Positions 9,028 through 25,118 of a stretch of DNA of 40,823 bases are shown piece by piece. The notes below the pieces were generated by a model. It made no database searches. It was not told the DNA's origin and saw only the letters and a program-made list of their open reading frames with translations. Location: the IMG/VR virus record IMGVR_UViG_3300034980_000254, positions 1 through 40,823 of that record, one strand, 5' to 3'. How positions within the stretch are numbered: the first letter of the stretch is position 1; each line of letters begins with the position of its first letter. This stretch comes from a virus. The position numbers were made by a program, and so were the translations under genes.

Positions 9028-10940
9028 TGATGCCAAGTATCGGCGGCTTTTCAATTTCAGTGACGGCGAATACTGCCGGGCTGAACAAAGGATTTAAGAA
9101 GGCTCGCGGGCTGACGCGTGGATTTGCGGGCGGCATCGGCAAGCTGGCGGGCGGCATGGCTGCCATCGGTGCTCCACTCGCTGGCATCGCTGGCATTGCC
9201 AAACTGATCAGAGTTGGCAGCGAATTCCAGTCAGAGATGAGTAACGTTAAGGCGTTCGTAAAGGGCACTGAGTCGGAATTACAAAAGCTTTCAGATACCG
9301 CCGAAGGGCTCGGTGCATCAACCGCGTTTACAGCGTCGGACGCGGCCAAGGCAATGGCCGAGATGGGCAAGGCGGGACTTTCTGCGAATCAAATACTAGG
9401 AGCATCTGAAGGCGTTCTGACGCTCGCCGCTGCTGGCGACATCGAGATGGCAGAAGCTGCAACAATTGCGGCTGCGTCGCTTAATCAGTTCGGCATTCCT
9501 GCATCTGAGATGGGCTCAGTTGTTGATCAGCTCGCAAAAGCTGCATCGTCTGGCTCGATCAGCTTATCAGGAATGGGCACGCAGTTATCATACGCCGCGG
9601 CGAGTGCGTCAGCGTTCGGCATGGATCTCGGCGAGACGTCCGGCATCATCTCAACACTGGCGACAACGCTCGGCGAAGACAAAGCCGGGACTGCATTCCG
9701 CTCAATGATGACATCGCTGCAAGCACCTACCGCTGGAGCGGCTGCTCAGCTCGAGTCGCTGGGAATATCTCTGACAGATTCGGCGGGTAACTTCCTGCAA
9801 CTGCCGGCGATCGTCGCACAGTTTAACGGTGCTTTGGCTGGGATGGCATCAGGCGAGAAGTCTGCCGCTATGAGCAAGATCTTCAACGTCCGCGGCATCG
9901 GTGCATTCTCCGCACTAATGAAGCAGGGGGCCGCAGGCATTCGTGAAGTCACGGCATCAGTTAATGATTCCGACGGCTTCGGACTGGCGGTTGCTGATGA
10001 GAAACTTGATAACGTTGCCGGCGGTTTCAAGCGACTCCAGAGTGCCGTGATGGCGATGTCGATCGACATCTTCCAGACGTTCGAGGGACCGCTGCAATCA
10101 GCACTTGAAGGCACTGCCAGCTTCGTGACTGATACTATGATTCCCGGCTGGAAGACGATGATGGAATGGGTCAGTGCGTTCGCAAAAGTTGCAGAGTTCG
10201 CTTGGACTAGCTTCGGAGCATTAGCAGGACTGGCGGCACTGAAGGCATTGTCTGCCGTTACAACGTTAAGCGAAGACATTCAGCACTTCTTCGGAACAAA
10301 TATGGCTGAGGTATTCAAATGGATGTTTTCTAACTGGTCGTCCATTTGGGTCGATATGGCCGCGGTTACTTTCGGTGTCCTTGAAAACATTGGACAGAAT
10401 GTGAGGAACGTATTCTCTGCTGTGTGGGAGACGGTCACATCGCTCGGTGAAACTCCTTTGACATTCGACATGGTGCCACTCATGGATGGAGTTCAAACTG
10501 TCACCGCTGGACTCGAGCTGACCGAAAGAGCAATGACGGCAGATGAGAGAGATTACCAGAGAGAGATAGCTGAAGTGGGCAATGCTATCGGTCAGGACTT
10601 CGATGACTTTTTAACGTCTACGGTCGACGGCATCGGAAGCACTACGGTAGCCGCAGATGATGTCATGGATGACGTTGCCAATGCTGACTTCAATGCTGAC
10701 TTCAATGCTGATAAATCCGCCGTCTCGACGAAAGATGGCGAAAGTCCGCTCGGCGTTGCGTTGCGAGGATCGAAGGAAGCGTTTGATGTGATCAATAAAG
10801 CTATCCGCGGCGAAAAAGACGCATACCAGAAAACGATTGCAAAAGAAGCTGAGAAGCAGACGAAACTGGCAGAGCAACAGGTTGCTCTACTTGAAGACAA
10901 TAACAGCATCGAACCGGCAGCGGTGATGAGTATTCCGTAA
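9027..10940 (+). CDS. Tape measure protein, TP901 family
   Basis: Sets tail length and passes into the cell at DNA ejection. The 637-residue protein has a Gly/Ala-rich hydrophobic N-terminal segment, then the TP901-type core: SEFQSEMSNVKAFVKGTES, LGASTAFTASDAAKAMAEMG, and GMGTQLSYAAASASAFGMDL. A hydrophobic helical patch lies near the middle and a Lys/Glu-rich helix near the end. With about 0.15 nm per residue the tail would be roughly 95 nm, short for a siphovirus. ATG codons at 9027 and 9030 are both possible starts. Confidence 0.93.
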   Translation: MMPSIGGFSISVTANTAGLNKGFKKARGLTRGFAGGIGKLAGGMAAIGAPLAGIAGIAKLIRVGSEFQSEMSNVKAFVKGTESELQKLSDTAEGLGASTAFTASDAAKAMAEMGKAGLSANQILGASEGVLTLAAAGDIEMAEAATIAAASLNQFGIPASEMGSVVDQLAKAASSGSISLSGMGTQLSYAAASASAFGMDLGETSGIISTLATTLGEDKAGTAFRSMMTSLQAPTAGAAAQLESLGISLTDSAGNFLQLPAIVAQFNGALAGMASGEKSAAMSKIFNVRGIGAFSALMKQGAAGIREVTASVNDSDGFGLAVADEKLDNVAGGFKRLQSAVMAMSIDIFQTFEGPLQSALEGTASFVTDTMIPGWKTMMEWVSAFAKVAEFAWTSFGALAGLAALKALSAVTTLSEDIQHFFGTNMAEVFKWMFSNWSSIWVDMAAVTFGVLENIGQNVRNVFSAVWETVTSLGETPLTFDMVPLMDGVQTVTAGLELTERAMTADERDYQREIAEVGNAIGQDFDDFLTSTVDGIGSTTVAADDVMDDVANADFNADFNADKSAVSTKDGESPLGVALRGSKEAFDVINKAIRGEKDAYQKTIAKEAEKQTKLAEQQVALLEDNNSIEPAAVMSIP

Positions 10941-11794
10941 TGGCAATCACAGTCAACGAACGATATGAAGGTCGCACATCTAAAATCGGACTGTATCTCA
11001 AGCGGGATCATGTCCGGCAATTTGTGGCGGAAAGCTCAGCCAATGAACGGAGCTGGGCCGTCGCTCAGGCTTCAGGTGTGCCATCACTGGGCGATGCTCA
11101 TCCTGAAGACGGCGTTGCATTATGCGTTGACATTGACGTCAAGCCGAACGGTGCTCCCAATGTCTGGGCGATCTCATGTAAGTACACAAATGATCTGCCT
11201 GATGACACAATCGATGATGACGATCCAACTTCTGTTCGAGCTAAGTCGTCATGGTCATTTGAAGACATCTCTCGATTCGTTGGGCAGGACCGTGATGATA
11301 ATCCGATCTTGAACACTGCCGGCGATCGGTATGAAGAACCGATCGAAGTGGTTGATAGTTTCCCCACGCTGACAATAACGAAGAATCGAGGATCTTTTAA
11401 TGCGTCGACTGCGTTTTCTTATAACAACTCGGTCAACTCAGACACTTATCGCGGAGCGGAGCCGGGCACTTTGCGAGTAAGGATTACAGCAAATGAAGAG
11501 TGGAAAAACGATGCACCATATTGGGCCACGAGTTATGTGTTCCGATACAATCCACACGGCTGGCAGCCGACAATATTAGAAGCTGGACTGTATCAGAAAG
11601 TATTGAGCAGCCGAGTTCCGTGCTTCATTAAAGGCGAGACTCCGCACGATTCAGAACCGGTTGAGCATCCGGTGCCGCTTGATATCAACGGATTGCAGAT
11701 TGATCCGACGACGCTCACAAATAATCCGTCGCCGGTCATTTATACGACGTGGAACGTGATTCCAGAGCTGCCGTATCTCAGCCTTGGAGTCTAA
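10940..11794 (+). CDS. Putative minor tail protein, unrecognised family
   Basis: A 284-residue protein without a motif I can name. It is rich in Asp, Asn and aromatic residues, looks beta-rich and soluble, and has no signal peptide. ATG overlaps the tape measure stop (TAATG) and its own stop overlaps the next ATG in the same way. Genes directly after the tape measure usually encode the distal tail protein or baseplate hub, so a distal tail role is the best inference. Confidence 0.6.
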   Translation: MAITVNERYEGRTSKIGLYLKRDHVRQFVAESSANERSWAVAQASGVPSLGDAHPEDGVALCVDIDVKPNGAPNVWAISCKYTNDLPDDTIDDDDPTSVRAKSSWSFEDISRFVGQDRDDNPILNTAGDRYEEPIEVVDSFPTLTITKNRGSFNASTAFSYNNSVNSDTYRGAEPGTLRVRITANEEWKNDAPYWATSYVFRYNPHGWQPTILEAGLYQKVLSSRVPCFIKGETPHDSEPVEHPVPLDINGLQIDPTTLTNNPSPVIYTTWNVIPELPYLSLGV

Positions 11795-12087
11795 TGGCTC
11801 AGAGTCCGAAGACTAATCGACGCGAGCAGGCACCGAAGCAGCGAGCTACTCGCACGCGGAAGACTGCAAACGCTCGCGGGTACAATCATGAGTGGCGGCG
11901 TGCTCGGCTACTTTGGCTTCAGGCTTGCCCGGTGTGCGTCGAGTGTGGATGGATCGACGTGCCTGCAAAGATGGTAGTTGATCACATACTCCCGCACCGT
12001 GGCAGCCGCCTGCTTTTCTGGAATCGGAGCAACTGGCAGACAATGTGTAAACGGTGCCATGATAAAAAGACAGGACGCGGTGAATGA
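11794..12087 (+). CDS. HNH endonuclease
   Basis: A small (97 aa) HNH nuclease. After a basic N-terminal tail it shows CPVCVECG (two zinc-binding Cys pairs shared with the C-terminus), the catalytic VVDHILPHRG and NWQTMCKRCHDKKT. HNH proteins of this size often sit beside terminase and assist cos cleavage, but here the gene lies within the tail operon, more like a free-standing homing endonuclease. The start at 11794 overlaps the upstream stop; the open frame extends to 11749 but that part lies in the upstream gene. Confidence 0.88.
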   Translation: MAQSPKTNRREQAPKQRATRTRKTANARGYNHEWRRARLLWLQACPVCVECGWIDVPAKMVVDHILPHRGSRLLFWNRSNWQTMCKRCHDKKTGRGE

Positions 12088-12500
12088 GCGGCGTTCAGTT
12101 TGATAAGAAATCAGCTCAGCGTGTAGCCAGTGCGACAAAACGCGTTGAGTCTATGCCGCGGGGTGGTGCTGCTACTCGTCGCGGAGCAGGCTCATCGGGG
12201 CAGGTTGTCTTTTTCATTCTGGTCGATGTATTGGGTGCCGCCACTGACTCGCTCACTGACGCATCATCAGCTCGAGCGACTGTGTACGCCAGCGATCCCG
12301 ACAATGCACCAGCGATGGCGGCGGATCAATCTACTTATACACCGCAGGAACTAATTACATCGGCACCAGATGCCCGCGTGGAATGGGTAGTCAATCGGTC
12401 ATTGGATTTGGCAGCAGTCGCGGGCACGGCTGGCATGGCAATCAGAGTCAACGGTGAGCTGCTCGTTTTCTGGGTAGACTGCACCGCAGGAGCTTCATAG
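12084..12500 (+). CDS. Hypothetical tail-region protein
   Basis: A 138-residue protein of unknown family. Its first 40 residues are basic and Gly/Arg-rich; the rest (QVVFFILVDVLGAATDS onwards) is a small beta-type domain with ATVYAS and RVEWVVNRSLDL strands and a final ELLVFWVDCTAGAS. ATG overlaps the HNH stop (ATGA). Its place between tail and fibre genes suggests a virion component. Confidence 0.55.
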   Translation: MSGVQFDKKSAQRVASATKRVESMPRGGAATRRGAGSSGQVVFFILVDVLGAATDSLTDASSARATVYASDPDNAPAMAADQSTYTPQELITSAPDARVEWVVNRSLDLAAVAGTAGMAIRVNGELLVFWVDCTAGAS

Positions 12501-13941: not shown

Positions 13942-15351
13942 GTGGCAGTTTTCGACAATTGCATTGCGTATTGGAATCTCGACGAGGCGGGCGGGCAAAC
14001 GCGATCCGACGCGGTCGGATCGTTTGATCTACAGGACACCTACGGTTTGGTGCCTGCGTATTCCGGGCAGATCAACAACGGGGCGCTGGCATACGGAACC
14101 AGTTCACTGATAGCCAGCACATCCCCGCCGTCGACGACGTTCGGTTATTACGGCTTTTCAATGGCGGGATGGTTCCGCATTCTCAGCGATGCAAACACGG
14201 ACACGCACGACATACTCACGATCACGTTGACTAATAGTCACACGATGACAATGACGTACAACGAATCAAGCAACCTGTTGTACTGCACACTGCGTGACGG
14301 AACGTATGGGTGGGGGGGCGAGATTCCGGGGACTCACACTACCGGTGCGGGCTGGATTTTCATAACGGCACAATGGCGGGGCACGACATTCTACGCAACG
14401 CTAGGCACGTCGGCGACACAAAGCGGACTGTCATCGGCAGCGTTGACGACTGGGCAGTCGTTAGTTTCAGTCGAGTACGAGGCCGGAACCGTTGCCGTCG
14501 ACGAGTTGGGGATCTGGGACGGCGAACTAAACGCGTCGGACATTGCCACGCTATACAACAGCGGAGCCGGACTATCGCACACCGGAGTTTTCGCCGGTTG
14601 TACGGCGTACTGGAAATGCGACGAGGCGACCGGGAAGTTCCTCGACAGCGTCGGCGATTATAATCTGTCGTCGAATTATCCGGGGAATCTGGGCCGGCGA
14701 GCCGGTAAAATCGGAACATACGCCTTCGAGAAGAATCTTATTGCTTCCGGCAATGCCGCGGTTGGTTGGGATACCAAGCCGGCAGACTTTACCGCGGCGA
14801 CGTTGTCACTCGCGGGATGGATTCGCATTGGCACGCTACCGACAAGCGGGTCGGCGAACGGCGTAATGTTCTTTGAAACAACGGACGGAGTCGGTACAGT
14901 CGACGACCAATATCGCTCGATCACGTTACGACACGACGCGACCGACGATAATCTCTACATCAAGACGTTGCACAACAACGACGACACATCGGCGACGCTA
15001 AAGGCCACGACATTCGGGGCGATATCGGCGGCGACGTGGTATCACATCGCGATCGTGTGGGATGGCACCGACGTCGATCTTGCGATTAACGGCACGACAG
15101 ATTCTGCCACCGGGCACGAATCGACGTCGGGATGTCTGGAAATTAACCAAATCGCACTAGGGGCAAACGCAGCACCTTCCGACGCATACGCGTTCGACGA
15201 GTGGGGCATCTGGGATCGGGCGTTGTCGTCGTCCGAAATTACCGCACTCTACAATAGCGGCAACGGACGATCGCATCCCGACTCGCCAGCGGGCAGCGTT
15301 GCCGACGTCGGCGGAGTTGCGTTGTTTGGTTTTCATGGATTCGCCACGTGA
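13942..15351 (+). CDS. Protein with two LamG/concanavalin-like domains
   Basis: A 469-residue protein built of two similar halves of about 220 residues. Each starts with an AYWNLDE/AYWKCDE-type strand, contains GFSMAGWFRI or LSLAGWIRIG, and ends with VDELGIWDGELNASDIATLYNSG or its counterpart near FDEWGIWDRALSSSEITALYN. This is the LamG-like jelly roll pattern (LamGL) that binds glycans. GTG directly follows the upstream stop TAA. The role is probably virion adsorption to surface polysaccharide. An internal duplication is evident from the repeated motifs. Confidence 0.8.
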   Translation: MAVFDNCIAYWNLDEAGGQTRSDAVGSFDLQDTYGLVPAYSGQINNGALAYGTSSLIASTSPPSTTFGYYGFSMAGWFRILSDANTDTHDILTITLTNSHTMTMTYNESSNLLYCTLRDGTYGWGGEIPGTHTTGAGWIFITAQWRGTTFYATLGTSATQSGLSSAALTTGQSLVSVEYEAGTVAVDELGIWDGELNASDIATLYNSGAGLSHTGVFAGCTAYWKCDEATGKFLDSVGDYNLSSNYPGNLGRRAGKIGTYAFEKNLIASGNAAVGWDTKPADFTAATLSLAGWIRIGTLPTSGSANGVMFFETTDGVGTVDDQYRSITLRHDATDDNLYIKTLHNNDDTSATLKATTFGAISAATWYHIAIVWDGTDVDLAINGTTDSATGHESTSGCLEINQIALGANAAPSDAYAFDEWGIWDRALSSSEITALYNSGNGRSHPDSPAGSVADVGGVALFGFHGFAT

Positions 15352-16208
15352 CAGAAACGCTACTGGCACCGGTACGCGGTGACGACGACATCGACGAAGC
15401 GTGGAAGGGCTCGGGCAAACGTTACCCGTGGAGCTACCGCGTGCAGGTTGTGATCCCGCACATGGACACGCCGGAACCGGTCGAGCTTGCGGTTGAGCTA
15501 TGGCGATCACAAACAGTGCGGCCGTTCATTTGTATCGTCGATATCGGCTCGCTGGACTGCCACCGCGAACGTCTCGCGGCGTTGCAATCTGACGACGTCG
15601 AGATTCATTACCTACGCGGGCACGGCTACCGGCATCCGTCCGAACCTTGCAGCGTGGCTCAGGATATTGCACTCGCTCGATGCCAGCAGGAGCATCAGTT
15701 CTGCACGCACAGTGATGTCTTCCCGCGGCGGCGTGATCTACTGGAAGCGTTCATCAAACAGTGCAACGCTGACGCTCCGGTTGTGGGTTACGAGATCAGC
15801 AGCAGAGATCACGTTAAAGGGCTTCAGGCGGACGTCTGGCGGGGTATGGTTGGACATACGGCAACTGTGTTGCATGTGCCGACGATCAAGCAGCAGGGCA
15901 TCACGTGGGACTACGAGCGGGCATTGCTCGACGGGCACGGCATCAGCCGCACGAATCTATCTGACTTCGATACAGAGATCGGTTTTAACCTGTTGCTTCG
16001 CCGAGCGGGAATCACGCCGGTGATCGTCGGAACGGAACGCAACGGAGTCAGAACGCTTGACGAAAACATCGATCATATCCGCAGCTTCGGCAGCTCGAAA
16101 CAATACTCGCCAAACCATCACGGCAAGGCATCGAAGTGGATGGCTGACGGCATGAGGGAAGCGGCGGAACGGTTGCAGGAATGGCAAGCCAGTGAGGTGA
16201 CAGGATGA
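15348..16208 (+). CDS. GT-A fold glycosyltransferase-like protein
   Basis: A 286-residue protein with a GT2-type N-terminal nucleotide-sugar fold: VQVVIPHMDTPEPVELA (32-48), ICIVDIGS at the second strand, and FCTHSDVFPRRRDLLEAF with HSD (121-123) in the place of the metal-binding DXD. It probably transfers a sugar from an activated donor. GTG start overlaps the concanavalin protein stop, and its stop overlaps the sulfotransferase start. The operon places it after the fibre genes, so targets may be virion proteins or host surface glycans. The acceptor cannot be read from sequence. Confidence 0.75.
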   Translation: MTETLLAPVRGDDDIDEAWKGSGKRYPWSYRVQVVIPHMDTPEPVELAVELWRSQTVRPFICIVDIGSLDCHRERLAALQSDDVEIHYLRGHGYRHPSEPCSVAQDIALARCQQEHQFCTHSDVFPRRRDLLEAFIKQCNADAPVVGYEISSRDHVKGLQADVWRGMVGHTATVLHVPTIKQQGITWDYERALLDGHGISRTNLSDFDTEIGFNLLLRRAGITPVIVGTERNGVRTLDENIDHIRSFGSSKQYSPNHHGKASKWMADGMREAAERLQEWQASEVTG

Positions 16209-17065
16209 CACAGCGAACGCTCTGCATGATCGTCGGGAGTGCGTACAGCGGAAGCACGCTGCTGACGGCTCTGCTCGATCGCAATCGTGACGTCAGCACG
16301 ATCGGCGAAGCAGCATCGCTTTACGATCTCCAATCAGTCCAGCGTCGAACGCATTGCTGGCGGTGTGGGTGTGCCGCTGAAGACTGCAAGCGATGGCAAC
16401 AGTGGGACCGCGAGCAGCCGTTTTACTCGTTCGCAATGGCAACGAATCCCGGTCGAGTCATCGTGGACTCGAGCAAAGATCCGGCGAAGATGATCGAGCA
16501 ATGGCACGGCGGCGGAGCGTATCCGAAAACGATCAAAGCCATCCATCTCAGCAAGTCGCCGGCGGAGCAGGTTGCCAGCTACTACCGGCACCAAAGATGG
16601 CGAACGCCAATCGGTCAGTCAGAGCCGTGGACGGCGGAAGAATGCGTCGACCAGTGGGTGCTCACTAATTACTGGTACGTCGGCTATCTGCGGCAGGCGA
16701 AGGTGCCGACGTTACGGGTGACTTATGCGGACCTGACACAGCGAACCGATGAAACGCTGCAACGGATCGCGGGCTTTCTCGGGATCGATTCAGAGTGGGA
16801 TACTGCTGACTCGCACACGCTCGGCGGGAATCCGGCAGTCGCATCAATCGAAAGCACGGACGCAAATAAGTATGACGACGAATGGCGGGCCGGCTACCTG
16901 AACGGCAAGTACGCCGACAAGCCATCATCTGGCTTGCAGGTACGCTATGACGATTCATGGAAAGAGCTGCCCGAAGAATTCGCGGCAGCGGCAACGGCGG
17001 CGACTGACGATCGGGCTGAAGAAGTCCTTCCGCTGATGCAGTTACTTGGTCACGCATCAGGATAG
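16205..17065 (+). CDS. PAPS-dependent sulfotransferase-like protein
   Basis: A 286-residue protein with the sulfotransferase nucleotide-binding signature: phosphosulfate loop GSAYSGSTLL (11-20) directly after the first strand, then VIVDSSKDP (85-93), and a 3'-phosphate-binding-like segment IHLSKSPAEQVASYYR (113-128). The family transfers sulfate from PAPS to sugars or proteins. A Cys cluster (Cys51, 54, 56, 61) may bind metal and is not typical. It overlaps the glycosyltransferase by 4 nt. A sugar-adding plus sugar-sulfating pair in the fibre operon suggests modification of a glycan; this is inference. Confidence 0.78.
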   Translation: MTQRTLCMIVGSAYSGSTLLTALLDRNRDVSTIGEAASLYDLQSVQRRTHCWRCGCAAEDCKRWQQWDREQPFYSFAMATNPGRVIVDSSKDPAKMIEQWHGGGAYPKTIKAIHLSKSPAEQVASYYRHQRWRTPIGQSEPWTAEECVDQWVLTNYWYVGYLRQAKVPTLRVTYADLTQRTDETLQRIAGFLGIDSEWDTADSHTLGGNPAVASIESTDANKYDDEWRAGYLNGKYADKPSSGLQVRYDDSWKELPEEFAAAATAATDDRAEEVLPLMQLLGHASG

Positions 17066-17083: not shown

Positions 17084-17278
17084 ATGCCTGATGGCATACT
17101 ACTCGAAGACGGAAACGATCTGATTCATCAAGGCGGGATGCGAATTCTACTTGAAGGCGAAGACACATCACTGACCATACCGACGCGAACCAATCTCGGA
17201 TTACAGATTGGCACTGAGGTTATTTCCGGGCTCGGCTTCAAGGTCGGTGATCAAACGCTCGACGGGGTGAGTGCTTAA
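17084..17278 (+). CDS. Small hypothetical protein after sulfotransferase
   Basis: A 64-residue protein of unknown family. It starts PDGILLEDGNDLIHQGG, a short motif repeated in altered form as MRILLEGEDTSL, suggesting a small beta repeat like those of phage tail tip proteins. The stop overlaps the following ATG (TAATG), so it is probably translated with the next gene. Confidence 0.55.
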   Translation: MPDGILLEDGNDLIHQGGMRILLEGEDTSLTIPTRTNLGLQIGTEVISGLGFKVGDQTLDGVSA

Positions 17279-17898
17279 TGGCAACAACGCCAAAGATAAA
17301 CGAGAAGACTTCGTTCCAATACGCCGGACAGATTCAGGACGCGGCCGGAACTGATCAGCTATTGTCAGCGACTGAAGCAATCTTGCTGACGGTTTATGAT
17401 GCGAACACGAAAACGGTATTGCGAGCGACGGAAGACGCACGCAATACGAATCAGGTGTCCATCGATTCAGCCGGTGCAATCACGTACAACGTGAGGCCGT
17501 ATGAAACGCGAGTTGCAAATGCGGCAGCGAGTCCCGGCGAAGCTGAAGAGCATCGGCTATTGTTTCGGTTCGTGTGGAACTCAGTCACAACCAGCACGTT
17601 GACGAATGCGTATGCCACAACGTCAGGAAGCAGCACCGTAACGGTCACGCATGTGGCACACGGCCTGTCGGCTGATGATCACGTTGTAATCAAAGGCGGC
17701 GACGATGTCGGCGGCTTGAATCTGCAAGGGCTGCGAATCATCACCAGTGTGGTTGATTCAAACACCTACACAATCACGCACGATTGCAAAGCCACCTCAA
17801 CAGCCACCGGCGGCGGTACGGCTACAAGTTACGACCTGCCGGAAACGTCAACGCACATCTATAAGTTCAAAGCCGTCAAGCAGGATGTGGTCTGCTAG
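17278..17898 (+). CDS. Putative baseplate/tail tip protein, FCCH-like domain
   Basis: A 206-residue protein with an N-terminal beta sandwich (LSATEAILLTVYDANTKTVL) that resembles immunoglobulin-like domains in tail proteins, and a C-terminal segment VTHVAHGLSADDHVVIKGG followed by TYTITHDCKATSTATGGG. The latter has the small barrel pattern of ubiquitin-activating-enzyme FCCH-like domains that are common in phage tail tip proteins. It ends 4 nt inside the convergent gene on the other strand. Confidence 0.6.
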   Translation: MATTPKINEKTSFQYAGQIQDAAGTDQLLSATEAILLTVYDANTKTVLRATEDARNTNQVSIDSAGAITYNVRPYETRVANAAASPGEAEEHRLLFRFVWNSVTTSTLTNAYATTSGSSTVTVTHVAHGLSADDHVVIKGGDDVGGLNLQGLRIITSVVDSNTYTITHDCKATSTATGGGTATSYDLPETSTHIYKFKAVKQDVVC

Positions 17899-19292
17899 AG
17901 TGACGCCGCCATTGCAATCAGATTTTGAATCATGCGATCTGGTATTGCAATGGCTGATCCTACGCGATGAGCGGGACTTGCGTTTGAGGTTTGTGATCCG
18001 TCCTGCATTGAGTTGACGACGACCAGGGAACTTCCCACTTGCTCGAGCACTAATCCGGGAAATGGACCAAACACGTCAAGGTCGACGCCGAGAGGCATTC
18101 CGTCGTCAGGATTTTCCGTGCTGTAGTAACGCTGCGAAAACGTAACCTCGGCCAGAGTAGTGCTACCACTCGCTGGAATCAGTTTTGTGTGAGCGATAAC
18201 CGAATACACGTTGCCGTAGGTTTCTCCGCTCCACGCGATATTGACTCCATCCAGTGCATCCGATGGGCCGGCGTCAGAATATTCAAATCGTCCAGGCCAA
18301 GGGCCAAAGAGGTTATAACTGGTGGCAGCGGACGTGAAGTATGAAACTCTGTAAAATGGATGCGATGGGGGGACATTCAGAAACTCAGTAGCAGGGAAAT
18401 CAACAGCAGGATCAAAAAGGGCAGTTGTGGTTCCAATTCCGAGAGTGCTCCAAATGTTACTGTCAGTCATCGAATCGATGATCAGGACTTTATTACCTGA
18501 GTCAAGCCATGCCTTCAGTGCTGACACATTGACGCCAGCGGTGGCGTATAATGATGCACGGCTAACGATGCACGCTTTCGCCGATGCCAGCGATGCACTG
18601 CCGAATGTCTCATCCAGCATTTGAGTTGCCGGGCCAGCGAAGTGCCACGGGTAACGTGTATCTGTGGTGTATCCGAGCGTTCCGCGTCCTGTCTCAAAGC
18701 GAGTATCATATGTGGTGCTCATGACATACGCCGTGCTGGCGGTTCTCCAGTATACAATCTCGGGCGGACACTTGGACGCGGACTGTGTAAAGCTCAAACT
18801 TCCCTCAAAAAAGACAGCATGTAATTCATCACTGTAGTATGGTCGGGTGCCTTCATCGGGCCATGATACATCCCAGCAGTTATGACAGCGGGCAATACCA
18901 ACTTCCAGTCGGTATGTGTGGGTTTGAGTACCGGTGGCAACTCCCCTGAAATACCACACGCTCTCATCTTCATAGTTTGGGCCGGGATTGTAATCGATTC
19001 CTAAGAATCCAGCTCGCACGCCAGCGTTCCCCTGGCTTAGATTTACTTCAACGCGTATCTCTTCGATGTGTCGCGTGCGTACCATCATATCGGATCGTAC
19101 AACCCCGATGGCGACGGTCTCACCAGATCCGACGTGGACAATCCTCCATAACGCGGTCTTTTTTGGGTAGATATCAGAGTCGACGTCATAGTCACTGTAA
19201 GCTGTGAGATCTCTATTGTTGGTGAAATCAAGATCGCCCGTCCATGTGTGGATTACTTTTGCCCAGGGTGCGTGGCATTGACGGCACGGCAT
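17895..19292 (-). CDS. Unknown 465-aa protein, opposite strand within late operon
   Basis: The only long gene on the minus strand in the late region, which marks it as a probable late insertion (moron). It starts MPCRQCHAPWAK with a CxxC pair and has CHNC further on, which may form a zinc site. The N-terminal ~230 residues look beta-rich and aromatic. A segment VSALKAWLDSGNKVLIIDS recalls glutamine-amidotransferase-like folds, but no catalytic triad is evident. I do not recognise it. Codon third positions are more mixed than in its neighbours. Its divergence from the lipase gene leaves only 23 bp for promoters. Confidence 0.65.
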   Translation of the reverse strand: MPCRQCHAPWAKVIHTWTGDLDFTNNRDLTAYSDYDVDSDIYPKKTALWRIVHVGSGETVAIGVVRSDMMVRTRHIEEIRVEVNLSQGNAGVRAGFLGIDYNPGPNYEDESVWYFRGVATGTQTHTYRLEVGIARCHNCWDVSWPDEGTRPYYSDELHAVFFEGSLSFTQSASKCPPEIVYWRTASTAYVMSTTYDTRFETGRGTLGYTTDTRYPWHFAGPATQMLDETFGSASLASAKACIVSRASLYATAGVNVSALKAWLDSGNKVLIIDSMTDSNIWSTLGIGTTTALFDPAVDFPATEFLNVPPSHPFYRVSYFTSAATSYNLFGPWPGRFEYSDAGPSDALDGVNIAWSGETYGNVYSVIAHTKLIPASGSTTLAEVTFSQRYYSTENPDDGMPLGVDLDVFGPFPGLVLEQVGSSLVVVNSMQDGSQTSNASPAHRVGSAIAIPDRMIQNLIAMAASL

Positions 19293-19315: not shown

Positions 19316-20056
19316 ATGGATCTGCTAATAAAAAGATCAGGCGGCTTCAATCAGATAGCTCACGTTCTGTGTGAGTGTGCCGGCTTTGCATACCTGCCGG
19401 TTGATGATGCAACCGCTGAGTATGATTCGCTCGGCTACTCAATGCAGCGGATCACGGCAGGTAGTTTGTCCGTCGATCTCGCTACTGATGGCACGTCAAC
19501 GATCGTGGCTTTCGCCGGCACTAATGACTTCAGCGACTGGCTGACGAATCTCAACGTCGACAAAGTCGATTGGCGTGGCTTCCAGCTTCATGAAGGATTT
19601 CATACCGGCGAATCGGATCTCTTTCGGCAGCTTGCGAGTCATTATCAGGATGAGCTGAGTAACGTCTGGATCACTGGTCACTCGCTCGGCGGAGCACTCG
19701 CAACATTGCACGCGTTGCGATTCGCTGAAGGCTACGGCACAGAATGCCTTCGCGGCGTTTATACGTTCGGCTCGCCGCGGTGCATGGATCGCCGCTCGGC
19801 TGATATCTGTGATCGACTGATGCGGCCGCGTCATTGGCGGATCGTCAACGGCAATGACATCGTCCCGAGGGTGCCGAGCTTTGTTAGATTCAAGCATTCA
19901 GGGCAGCACGTGCGGATCAATCGCAACGGCAAGATCATCCATCGTCCATCACCGCTCTGGACGCTAATTGATAGGGTGCTGGGTTACCGGGCTGACCTGC
20001 TGTTTGATCACTTCGTCGATAAATATCTATTACCGCTGGCGGGGCAAATCAAATGA
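19316..20056 (+). CDS. Class 3 lipase
   Basis: An alpha/beta-hydrolase of 246 residues with all lipase 3 hallmarks: oxyanion strand TIVAFAGTNDFSDW (62-75), nucleophile Ser123 in GHSLGG (121-126), acid Asp181 in NGNDIVPRVP and base His232 in FDHFVDKYLLP. It should hydrolyse acylglycerols or phospholipids. No signal peptide is seen. The gene overlaps the secreted protease by 4 nt and lies where lysis genes are expected, so it may attack host membrane lipids at release; a host-takeover role is the alternative. Confidence 0.85.
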   Translation: MDLLIKRSGGFNQIAHVLCECAGFAYLPVDDATAEYDSLGYSMQRITAGSLSVDLATDGTSTIVAFAGTNDFSDWLTNLNVDKVDWRGFQLHEGFHTGESDLFRQLASHYQDELSNVWITGHSLGGALATLHALRFAEGYGTECLRGVYTFGSPRCMDRRSADICDRLMRPRHWRIVNGNDIVPRVPSFVRFKHSGQHVRINRNGKIIHRPSPLWTLIDRVLGYRADLLFDHFVDKYLLPLAGQIK

Positions 20057-21342
20057 GAACGGCGTTTGTTCTGTGTGCGTTTTGTCTACCAGTGGCGGCG
20101 AATGATGCCGCCGCGGTGAAGCTCAGCAGCGGTTGCTCTGGCGTGTGCGTATCGGCTGACGGTTTGATTCTCACTGCCGATCATTGCGGCGATGATCGCC
20201 GCGTTGATGTGACATTCGCCGACGGTCAGCAATTTGAAGCCGTCGCGGTTTACCTGCCGCCGCTCAATGGAATCGATGAAGCTCAAGCGTACCGAATCAC
20301 GACTGACAAGCCGCTACCATTTGCGGCGATCTCGAGCACACCAGCAAAAGCTGGCGACTCGGTATCAGCGGTCGGCTATCCTGCCGGCAACTATCAGAAG
20401 AACGCCGGCAAAGTGCTCCGCGTAGGATTCGGGACGAAAGCACGCGACGGCTTCAGCGTGAAGCTTGCCGACGGGCTGGTCACTAATTGGGCGAGCGATG
20501 GCGGCAACTCTGGCGGGCCACTGTTCGACGCTGCCGGCGAAGTTGTCGGCCTGCTCTCAATGTCCGCGACAGATGAGCCACGATCGTATTGGATCGGCAC
20601 TGACTCAATCAGTGAGGCCGTCAAACGTGCTGAGCTGCCCGCTACGGCGTACCGGCGAGCTGATGTGATTGTCTTCACGACTGATGGCTGTGCGGCGTGT
20701 GATCGGCTACAGAGCGACGTCAGAGCGGGCAGGTTTGCCGCGTATCAATTCCAGTTCATCAAATACGATCGCACGCTCCGGCAGTGGTCAGATAAGTCGC
20801 TAGCAAAAGAGTTCGCCGACACGGCAAAAGCTCCCGCCGGTCTCGGCTTCCCGGTGATCTGGGTACGTGGCTCGACGAATTACCGAACGGGCTACGAGCC
20901 GAACCAGCGAAGCGGTCTGCTCGGCTGGCTGACTCGAGTTGTGACAGGCCTGGCAACGTTGATCATCGGCGAAGAAACTCCGCCACCGTTCCCGCCGATC
21001 GAAGGCGAAGCCGTGCCGGTGCCTGATGGTGCTGATCCTGCACCAGTGCCGGTGCCAATGCCGACACCAATCGATGCAACGAAGCTTGCGGTTGAGAAGC
21101 TCCGCGGCGATCTGCTTAAAGCAAAAGCCGACGTCGAGAAGCTGAAGAGTGCGAATCCGATCACAAAGCTGAAAGGCGTTGTTGCCCTGAAATCGGACGT
21201 GGCCGGCATCAAGGAAAACGCTCAGGCGGCACTCGATCAGGTTAAGCTCGCGAGGGAAGACGCAAAAGAAAAACCGCTCCAGTATCTGTGGGGCGTGCTA
21301 GGGATTATCACCGGACTGGCTCATCGAAGGTTTGCAGCGTAA
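20053..21342 (+). CDS. Secreted trypsin-like protease fused to thioredoxin-like domain and membrane anchors
   Basis: A 429-residue multidomain protein. A signal peptide (MRTAFVLCAFCLPVAA) precedes an S1C-type protease with His44 (LTADHCG), probable Asp75 (GIDEA) and Ser153 (DGGNSGGPLF). Residues about 203-275 form a thioredoxin-like domain with CAAC (213-216) and a cis-Pro-like GFPVIWV. Then come a hydrophobic segment (288-306), a Pro-rich linker (309-340), a charged coiled coil (342-405) and a final hydrophobic helix (408-422). I know no described phage protein with this order. It overlaps the lipase upstream and a holin-like gene downstream, pointing to lysis. Confidence 0.8.
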   Translation: MRTAFVLCAFCLPVAANDAAAVKLSSGCSGVCVSADGLILTADHCGDDRRVDVTFADGQQFEAVAVYLPPLNGIDEAQAYRITTDKPLPFAAISSTPAKAGDSVSAVGYPAGNYQKNAGKVLRVGFGTKARDGFSVKLADGLVTNWASDGGNSGGPLFDAAGEVVGLLSMSATDEPRSYWIGTDSISEAVKRAELPATAYRRADVIVFTTDGCAACDRLQSDVRAGRFAAYQFQFIKYDRTLRQWSDKSLAKEFADTAKAPAGLGFPVIWVRGSTNYRTGYEPNQRSGLLGWLTRVVTGLATLIIGEETPPPFPPIEGEAVPVPDGADPAPVPVPMPTPIDATKLAVEKLRGDLLKAKADVEKLKSANPITKLKGVVALKSDVAGIKENAQAALDQVKLAREDAKEKPLQYLWGVLGIITGLAHRRFAA

Positions 21343-21551
21343 TGGGCACAATCGCAGGAATCATCGCGAGCTTTGCCGCCAGCCACCTCGGCGGGCTCGG
21401 GCTCGGCGGCTTGATGGCTTCAAAGGGCTGGCTCGGCTTCGCCGGCGGAGCGAGCAAACTGATCATCAGGCGACGCATGGAGCGGCGAGCGAAGAAAGCC
21501 GCCGCGGATCTGGAATCATGGCTCGAGAATGAAACGGAAGAACGCGAGTGA
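21342..21551 (+). CDS. Small membrane protein, holin candidate
   Basis: A 69-residue protein. Residues 1-42 are Gly/Ala-rich and hydrophobic and could cross the membrane once or twice; residues 45-69 are strongly charged (RRRMERRAKKAAADLE) and would remain in the cytoplasm. This is the usual build of small holins. The ATG overlaps the protease stop (TAATG) and the stop overlaps the next start. Function is inferred from build and context. Confidence 0.6.
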   Translation: MGTIAGIIASFAASHLGGLGLGGLMASKGWLGFAGGASKLIIRRRMERRAKKAAADLESWLENETEERE

Positions 21552-21754
21552 TTGAGCTGCTCATCGGATTAGTCGGATTACAGGCGATGGTATTGCTGGC
21601 GGCGATCCCGTGGGCGTACAGCGTCCACGGTCGCATCGTGGCAATCGAATCACGGCTGATCGCTAATCTCGATCTGGTCGATCGGGTAACGATCCTCGAG
21701 CGAGACGTGCTGACGCTACAGATTGCACCGGATCACGATCACGATCACGATTAA
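21548..21754 (+). CDS. Small membrane/coiled-coil protein, lysis accessory candidate
   Basis: A 68-residue protein with an N-terminal membrane helix (LLIGLVGLQAMVLLAAIPWA) followed by a short coiled coil and an acidic His-Asp repeat tail (DHDHDHD). GTG at 21548 overlaps the upstream TGA (GTGA). N-terminal anchor plus periplasmic or cytoplasmic coiled coil resembles i-spanins or antiholins. The His/Asp tail may bind metal. Last gene of the late operon. Confidence 0.6.
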   Translation: MIELLIGLVGLQAMVLLAAIPWAYSVHGRIVAIESRLIANLDLVDRVTILERDVLTLQIAPDHDHDHD

Positions 21755-24008: not shown

Positions 24009-25118
24009 CTAAGATTCGTCCCAAAGCACTGAAATAGCGTGCTCAACGTCCTGCCCGACATAGTATTTCATCGTCGTCTCGATGGATTCATGCCGCATCA
24101 GGAGCTGAAGAACCTGCGGCATCACCTGCCGTGACCACCGGGCACCGAACGAGCGGCGGAGATCGTGAGCCGACGCGTACCGCGGCGGGTGCTCGCTGGT
24201 CAGCACTTCAGCCGCTCGGCATATTTTCGTGATGGTTTTGCTGGCGTACTCGCCGAGATCGCCACCAGTGCGACCGGGGCGAAGTTTTGAAAACTCAAAC
24301 ACATTGCCGGCTCGCTCGCCGCTATCTTCGAGCATCGCGGCAAAGTCTGGAGTGATCGGCAGGAGCTTTCCGCGGCCGCTCTTATCGGTGCCGGGCGGAA
24401 TCCGAAACATTGGACGATCAGCAGTCAGGTCGATCGAGATTACATCAGAGCGATCCCATGACAACGAGATCGCTTCGCCTAATCGCAAGCCGCTGAGCCA
24501 TAGTCCGGTGAGGTTGCGTTGCCAGTCGTGGGCTCTGGCTTCGCCGACGATGCCCGGCGTAGCGTCAAGGATCGATCCGAACTCGGTATCAGTCAGCGGT
24601 CGGCCGTGCATCCCGCCGGCTGATTGTCGCCGGCGTGGCATCCGTGGCATCCGCGGGCAGAATGGAAGCATCCCGGCGTCGACTGCCCAATTGATCGACG
24701 CTCTGATGGCAGCCAGTCGGCTGCGGATTGTTTCCTCGGATCGTCGACGATCATCGGCTCTCATCTCGCCGACGAACTCGGTGAGCATCTCGCTGGTGAC
24801 GTCTCGCAACGTCGCCGGCTGACAGTACCGCTCGAGCAGCTCGAGTGCTCCGAGATAATCGGTTCGCGTCTTTGGTCGCAATCCTTTGAGGTGCCGCTCG
24901 TCGAGCAGGTCGACGAAGTAGCCGAAAGCGAGCGAGCCATCACCGCTCGGCGATGCTGAATTGAGCTCGTCTTCCCAGCGAGCGGCGGCACGTTCTGCAT
25001 CGCGGCGGTTGGTCGTTCCGGTGCTCCGCTCGACTTTCTTTTTCGAGCGTGGGCAGCGGTAGACCATGCTCAGGAATCGGTTGCGGCTGCGGTCGATGAC
25101 GTGGACGCGAACGGGCAC
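24009..25118 (-). CDS. int: Tyrosine recombinase integrase
   Basis: Catalyses recombination between attP and a host attB. The 369-residue protein has an N-terminal arm-binding region (1-60, basic strands), a core-binding SAM-like domain (65-160) and a catalytic domain with Arg212 (GLRLGEA), a Lys in TDKSGRGK (246 or 251), His318 and Arg321 (HDLRRSF), His343 (MRHES) and Tyr352 (MKYYVG). All expected residues are present, so it should be active. It lies 2 kb from the attP whose tRNA-Arg core and arm repeats it presumably binds. Confidence 0.95.
   Translation of the reverse strand: MPVRVHVIDRSRNRFLSMVYRCPRSKKKVERSTGTTNRRDAERAAARWEDELNSASPSGDGSLAFGYFVDLLDERHLKGLRPKTRTDYLGALELLERYCQPATLRDVTSEMLTEFVGEMRADDRRRSEETIRSRLAAIRASINWAVDAGMLPFCPRMPRMPRRRQSAGGMHGRPLTDTEFGSILDATPGIVGEARAHDWQRNLTGLWLSGLRLGEAISLSWDRSDVISIDLTADRPMFRIPPGTDKSGRGKLLPITPDFAAMLEDSGERAGNVFEFSKLRPGRTGGDLGEYASKTITKICRAAEVLTSEHPPRYASAHDLRRSFGARWSRQVMPQVLQLLMRHESIETTMKYYVGQDVEHAISVLWDES

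Follow-up and report, generated by a model that had tools for sequence, protein, structure and literature searches.

A putative lysis cassette of planctomycete siphophages that combines a lipid hydrolase with a secreted protease–thioredoxin protein

The IMG/VR virus record IMGVR_UViG_3300034980_000254 was analyzed over its full length of 40,823 bases (hereafter the window). It has a siphophage layout, with genes for terminase, portal, prohead protease, capsid, connectors, tail proteins and tape measure, and replication genes in its right part; we infer that its host is a planctomycete. Four plus-strand open reading frames, confirmed at 19316-21754 and all overlapping, lie after the tail genes, the last of which are tail-fibre-like, and before the integrase. 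These genes and two others in their surroundings are the following:

17895-19292, minus strand: 465-aa gene filling a variable slot between the tail genes and the lipase, on the strand opposite to its neighbours
19316..20056, plus strand: class 3 lipase of 246 aa (PF01764, E=1.1e-25, 90.6 bits against a cut-off of 22)
20053..21342, plus strand: HtrA/DegS-like S1 protease–thioredoxin fusion with a signal peptide (PF13365, E=1.9e-18; AlphaFold model; Foldseek)
21342..21551, plus strand: glycine-rich hydrophobic protein of 69 aa, holin candidate
21548..21754, plus strand: bitopic protein of 68 aa, an N-terminal transmembrane segment followed by a coiled coil, holin- or spanin-like candidate
24009-25118, minus strand: integrase

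The variable slot holds a plus-strand gene of similar length in the close relative L028, weakly similar to 17895-19292 (BLASTP E=0.002), and a 697-aa gene in L081. Inversion of the window gene was considered and dropped for want of strong flanking inverted repeats. Elsewhere in the window, two genes of the tail region (15348-17065) encode a protein with a weak, sub-threshold TuaG glycosyltransferase-like match (E=0.039) and then a sulfotransferase (PF13469, E=5e-7), products that the tail block of a siphophage does not usually carry, and the product of 26938-28080 matches the central domain of the DNA polymerase III beta clamp (PF02767, E=2e-14).

The preliminary description of this locus had named a class 3 lipase, and the PF01764 match and an intact catalytic triad confirm it, with S123 in GHSLGG, D181 in NDIVPR and H232 in DHFVDKY, each in its expected motif. 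The protein matches fungal lipases of the PDB (E=5e-14) and carries no signal peptide. Comparison with a 94% identical relative (L002) yielded a dN of 0.034, a dS of 0.169 and a dN/dS of about 0.2, which indicates that the gene is under purifying selection. Orthologues lie within the cassettes of L081, L034 and L130, and we interpret the protein as a predicted lipid hydrolase occupying the enzyme slot of the cassette. It differs from LysB, the cutinase-like enzyme acting beside LysA, as its matches are to class 3 lipases and not to cutinases, and LysA was not recognized in the window. Lipase matches were also obtained in cyanophages, for which we claim no cassette.

The second protein comprises an S1 protease domain (residues about 20-195), a CxxC thioredoxin-like domain (about 204-280), a proline-rich linker and long helices (339-428). 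The S1 domain of the AlphaFold model (pLDDT 73) matches DegS and Rv3671c (Foldseek E=1e-13, prob 1.00), and its catalytic residues are H44, D75 and S153. The protein shares with the periplasmic proteases HtrA/DegS and MarP (Rv3671c) the S1 double-barrel fold, the His/Asp/Ser motifs and predicted secretion, whereas it lacks a PDZ domain and is fused to the thioredoxin-like domain, the linker and the helical tail. It is accordingly not an HtrA proper, scoring 15-48 bits against NCBIfam cut-offs of 250-1200 and giving no PDZ match.

The modelled thioredoxin-like segment has the order beta-alpha-beta-alpha-beta-beta (strands 204-210, 232-239, 268-271 and 277-279; helices 214-224 and 248-258), with a CAAC motif (C213/C216) and the cis-proline P267. 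Pfam called a thioredoxin domain in relatives only, such as Thioredoxin_2 in L100 (E=3.8e-7, 30.8 bits against a cut-off of 27), and returned no such match for the window protein itself; homology and alignment, together with the model, nevertheless support a thioredoxin-like domain there. The catalytic and CxxC residues, the catalytic aspartate excepted, are kept in 31-32 of 33 relatives, including C213, C216 and P267 in 32. The column of D75 (alignment A7) reads glutamate in 23 of the 33, mostly in cassettes of the NlpC/P60 type described below. A Sec-type signal peptide is predicted on the protein in the window and in most relatives, where its gene is the third of the unit. The fusion had been proposed to be secreted and to carry two hydrophobic anchors: the S1 domain, the CAAC motif and the signal peptide stand, but the inner anchors are weak, with KD values of 1.1 for segment 286-306 and 0.4 for segment 407-427, and of the hydrophobic stretches the N-terminal signal peptide alone is clear.

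Both small membrane proteins proposed downstream exist as overlapping frames. The start of the 69-aa gene, however, has to be shifted, most likely to ATG 21342 (in a TAATG overlap with the protease stop) rather than GTG 21288, and its product is borderline in hydropathy (KD 1.48). Homologues follow the protease immediately in L081, L082 and L013 and stand one gene further on in L034. The 68-aa protein has a clearly hydrophobic segment at residues 2-20 (KD 2.33) and an orthologue in L082. Genes for transmembrane/coiled-coil proteins of like topology immediately precede that of the slot enzyme in L034, in L130 and in all 27 NlpC/P60-type cassettes with a protease–thioredoxin gene. Against curated lysis families, no score of the small cassette proteins reaches its cut-off; sub-cut-off XhlA and DUF2570 matches occur in those of relatives, such as the weak XhlA match of the L093 transmembrane/coiled-coil protein (2.7e-4).

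A search for the same gene order in other planctomycete phages, suggested in the preliminary description, showed that the unit recurs in related phages and in planctomycete prophages. Relatives of the terminase led to planctomycete genomes (L035-L038) and to other phages. The full window order is present in L081, and L082 has all but the lipase, which is lost at the contig end. L034 has the order Gam, transmembrane/coiled-coil protein, lipase, protease–thioredoxin, a second transmembrane/coiled-coil protein and a small hydrophobic protein, then HNH, TerS and TerL (Gam, TerS and HNH were assigned by eye). Scanning viral contigs with the window protease alone gave no matches, and scanning them with an alternative slot enzyme of 200 aa added 32 loci. 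At 31 loci a slot enzyme is followed directly by a protease–thioredoxin match, usually with a 4-base overlap; three of these are of the lipase type, and at L160 thioredoxin is present alone. The 27 NlpC/P60-type loci, many of them near-identical and hence not 27 independent events, have the order transmembrane/coiled-coil protein, slot enzyme and protease–thioredoxin, mostly with 4-base overlaps. Planctomycete prophages with this order are found in G043 (three copies), G310, G384 (three), G493 and G701, and one planctomycete genome (G276) has a cassette of the lipase type. We interpret the block as a conserved, mobile unit of planctomycete phages and prophages; purifying selection on the lipase and the presence of the cassette in distant phages show that the arrangement is not a chance one.

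The third gene of the unit also varies, encoding S1 proteases without thioredoxin (L159, L161-L163, L165, L168), thioredoxin without protease (L160) or degenerate thioredoxin-like proteins (L169, L170). The S1-only proteins share a C-terminal motif and have collagen-like Gly-Pro-Pro linkers. One relative of the protease–thioredoxin protein (G659/L129) lies outside any visible cassette. Many planctomycete genomes gave protease-only matches, which were left out of the count as probable cellular HtrA-like proteins. Acidobacteriota were rejected as hosts of L034: among 297 genomes only G015's own contig matched and the same contig is also an IMG/VR record (L083), so that a misbinned phage contig is likely. 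Two prophage copies in G043 (L093-L095) are separated by 36,168 bases and show 100% identity over 20.8 kb, which reflects either a tandem prophage or an assembly duplication.

The alternative slot enzyme has no Pfam or NCBIfam match, and a PDB sequence-profile search with it returned nothing. Its model is of low confidence (pLDDT 46), with 3kw0 (Z 5.9) and Escherichia coli YiiX (2if6, Z 5.3) as best solved-structure matches and an LRAT chimera at rank 4. H43 and E58 are present in 39 of 39 sequences and C159 in 38. The order His, Glu, Cys and these best matches fit a permuted NlpC/P60 enzyme of the YiiX/YaeF type, which here takes the lipase slot; unlike known members, the phage enzyme belongs to a divergent branch without family matches, and its activity is a prediction. 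Permuted NlpC/P60 members are reported to act on lipids, one being a demonstrated phospholipase, and canonical members cut peptidoglycan (PMC12994826). Because the permuted members are described as lipid-acting and two unrelated folds share one slot, what the slot requires is probably an enzyme that hydrolyzes lipids and not one that cleaves peptidoglycan.

The unit occupies three genomic positions: between tail genes and integrase (the window), upstream of TerS/TerL (L034, L013), and between head-joining and tail genes (L096, L099, L100, L127, L128). Lambda carries its lysis genes upstream of terminase, P2 carries them between head and tail genes, and many temperate siphophages have them past the tail genes and before the integrase. 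By analogy, the three positions of the unit are classical lysis positions and lend support to a role in lysis. In L013, the protease–thioredoxin gene and the small-protein gene are followed, upstream of TerS, by a gene for a secreted DNA/RNA non-specific endonuclease (1495-2424, PF01223, E=1.1e-41) directly after the small membrane protein; it may serve to break down the DNA of the host as lysis proceeds or afterwards.

These positions also bear on entry. The lipase (or NlpC/P60-like enzyme) and the protease–thioredoxin protein could be carried in the particle to open the envelope locally during DNA injection, as the placement of the unit between head-joining and tail genes in L096, L099, L127 and L128, and after tail-fibre-like genes in the window, would allow. 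Among NlpC/P60-type prophages, the unit is embedded in the structural operon, an arrangement also compatible with a virion part and to that extent a point against the cassette reading. Virion proteins nonetheless seldom carry a Sec-type signal peptide, genes for bitopic membrane proteins accompany the enzymes, and the unit moves among three positions, one of them upstream of TerS and away from the tail genes, so that we regard entry as improbable. We likewise judge it improbable that the genes form an accessory module by which the lysogen excludes superinfecting phages or has its envelope modified: a secreted, envelope-directed protein and membrane proteins in temperate phages with integrases would suit such a module, but consecutive genes overlap end to start, are all on the late-gene strand, within the late block or at its end, and recur throughout the lineages, and no other lysis gene was recognized.

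Protein envelopes rich in cysteine, proline and disulfides have been described in planctomycetes (PMC3035269); the cysteine-rich YTV proteins belong to the walls of Planctomycetales, an order in which most species miss peptidoglycan genes (PMC8567305), and P. limnophila can do without several peptidoglycan genes (PMC10632474). We detected YTV domains in 8 of 8 genomes tested, every cassette-bearing genome tested among them, and in 0 of 14 controls. MurC homologues were present in 7 of the 8 genomes, including all six cassette-bearing planctomycete genomes, and the hosts therefore probably still make some peptidoglycan. The YTV wall proteins of cassette hosts lend indirect support to the earlier proposal of a protein-rich envelope as the target. 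Our claim is that these phages appear to target lipid and protein, not that their hosts lack peptidoglycan.

The preliminary description had recognized no lysozyme, amidase or endopeptidase, and had named a peptidoglycan hydrolase elsewhere in the late region as a finding that would overturn its reading. Our scans agree with it: no peptidoglycan hydrolase was recognized in the cassette or among nearly all predicted window genes, a few small open reading frames being left out, nor was one, or any other lysis enzyme family, among the 32 open reading frames scanned in the complete 36 kb prophage framed by the tandem G043 copies (two frames crossing locus boundaries were excluded). Families in that prophage comprise capsid, portal, terminase, tape measure, integrase, primase and Trypsin. 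These results are qualified by the fact that endolysin detection in planctomycete phages has no positive control here: the related, cassette-free prophage of the isolate TBK1r, chosen for that purpose, has a matrixin metalloprotease at the candidate lysis position instead. This gene can be placed as follows:

L173 8337-10819, minus strand: matrixin metalloprotease (HEIGHALGLPH) of the TBK1r tandem prophage, adjoining genes for a secreted coiled-coil protein and small transmembrane proteins

The TBK1r locus is possibly a third protease-based cassette.

Ordinary lysis by an unrecognized peptidoglycan hydrolase encoded elsewhere, with the lipase/protease unit merely assisting disruption of the outer envelope, would account for the MurC homologues of the hosts. 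Four window genes (10940-11794, 12084-12500, 17278-17898 and 17895-19292) lack strong family matches, several genes of the window match no family at all and could hide such an enzyme, and LysB is a known lipolytic helper beside an endolysin (PMC6116114). Against this stand the scans of the window and of the complete prophage, where the cassette enzymes are the sole lysis-enzyme candidates, and we consider this explanation unlikely, albeit one to be taken seriously. It is compatible with a lysis cassette in the broad sense and not with lysis by the unit alone.

We conclude that a temperate planctomycete siphophage probably uses the four genes as its lysis cassette, with a lipid hydrolase and a secreted protease–thioredoxin protein acting against a protein-rich, cystine-stabilized envelope. 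That lysis by an entire group of planctomycete phages dispenses wholly with a dedicated peptidoglycan hydrolase and follows a two-target strategy with interchangeable modules is a more doubtful proposition that we advance tentatively: in MurC-bearing hosts, peptidoglycan must probably still be breached.

From the observed gene content, intact catalytic residues, conservation, slot exchange and positions, we infer timing, membrane topology, substrates and lysis as follows. Late in infection, the small membrane proteins would permeabilize the inner membrane as holins, bridge the membranes as spanins, or both. The cytosolic lipase would then reach envelope lipids and hydrolyze acyl esters. The protease–thioredoxin protein, exported via its own signal peptide, would attack the proteinaceous, cystine-stabilized layer, its CxxC domain opening or rearranging disulfides and its S1 domain cutting protein. 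The lipid slot and the protein slot would in this way replace the usual dedicated endolysin.

The closest parallels are partial. The LysA–LysB–holin cassettes of mycobacteriophages Ms6 and D29, with a lipolytic LysB next to the endolysin (PMC6116114), likewise encode an alpha/beta serine hydrolase with a GXSXG motif together with small holin-like membrane proteins; LysB, however, is cutinase-like and stands beside an endolysin, whereas here a class 3 lipase accompanies a secreted protease–thioredoxin protein and an endolysin was not recognized. The lambda S-R-Rz/Rz1 and P2 Y-K-LysABC cassettes resemble the unit in their positions, in a small bitopic coiled-coil protein and in a cytosolic enzyme without signal peptide, but in the unit a predicted lipid hydrolase and a secreted protease–thioredoxin protein replace the muralytic enzyme, and an o-spanin lipoprotein was not identified.

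No paper on phage lysis of planctomycetes was found in the open-licence literature. If our reading is correct, phage lysis enzymes would be matched to whatever chemistry bears the load in the host envelope. The cassette would then offer a genetic handle on the long debate over protein versus peptidoglycan as the load carrier in planctomycetes, and enzyme leads for lysing members of a poorly tractable phylum.
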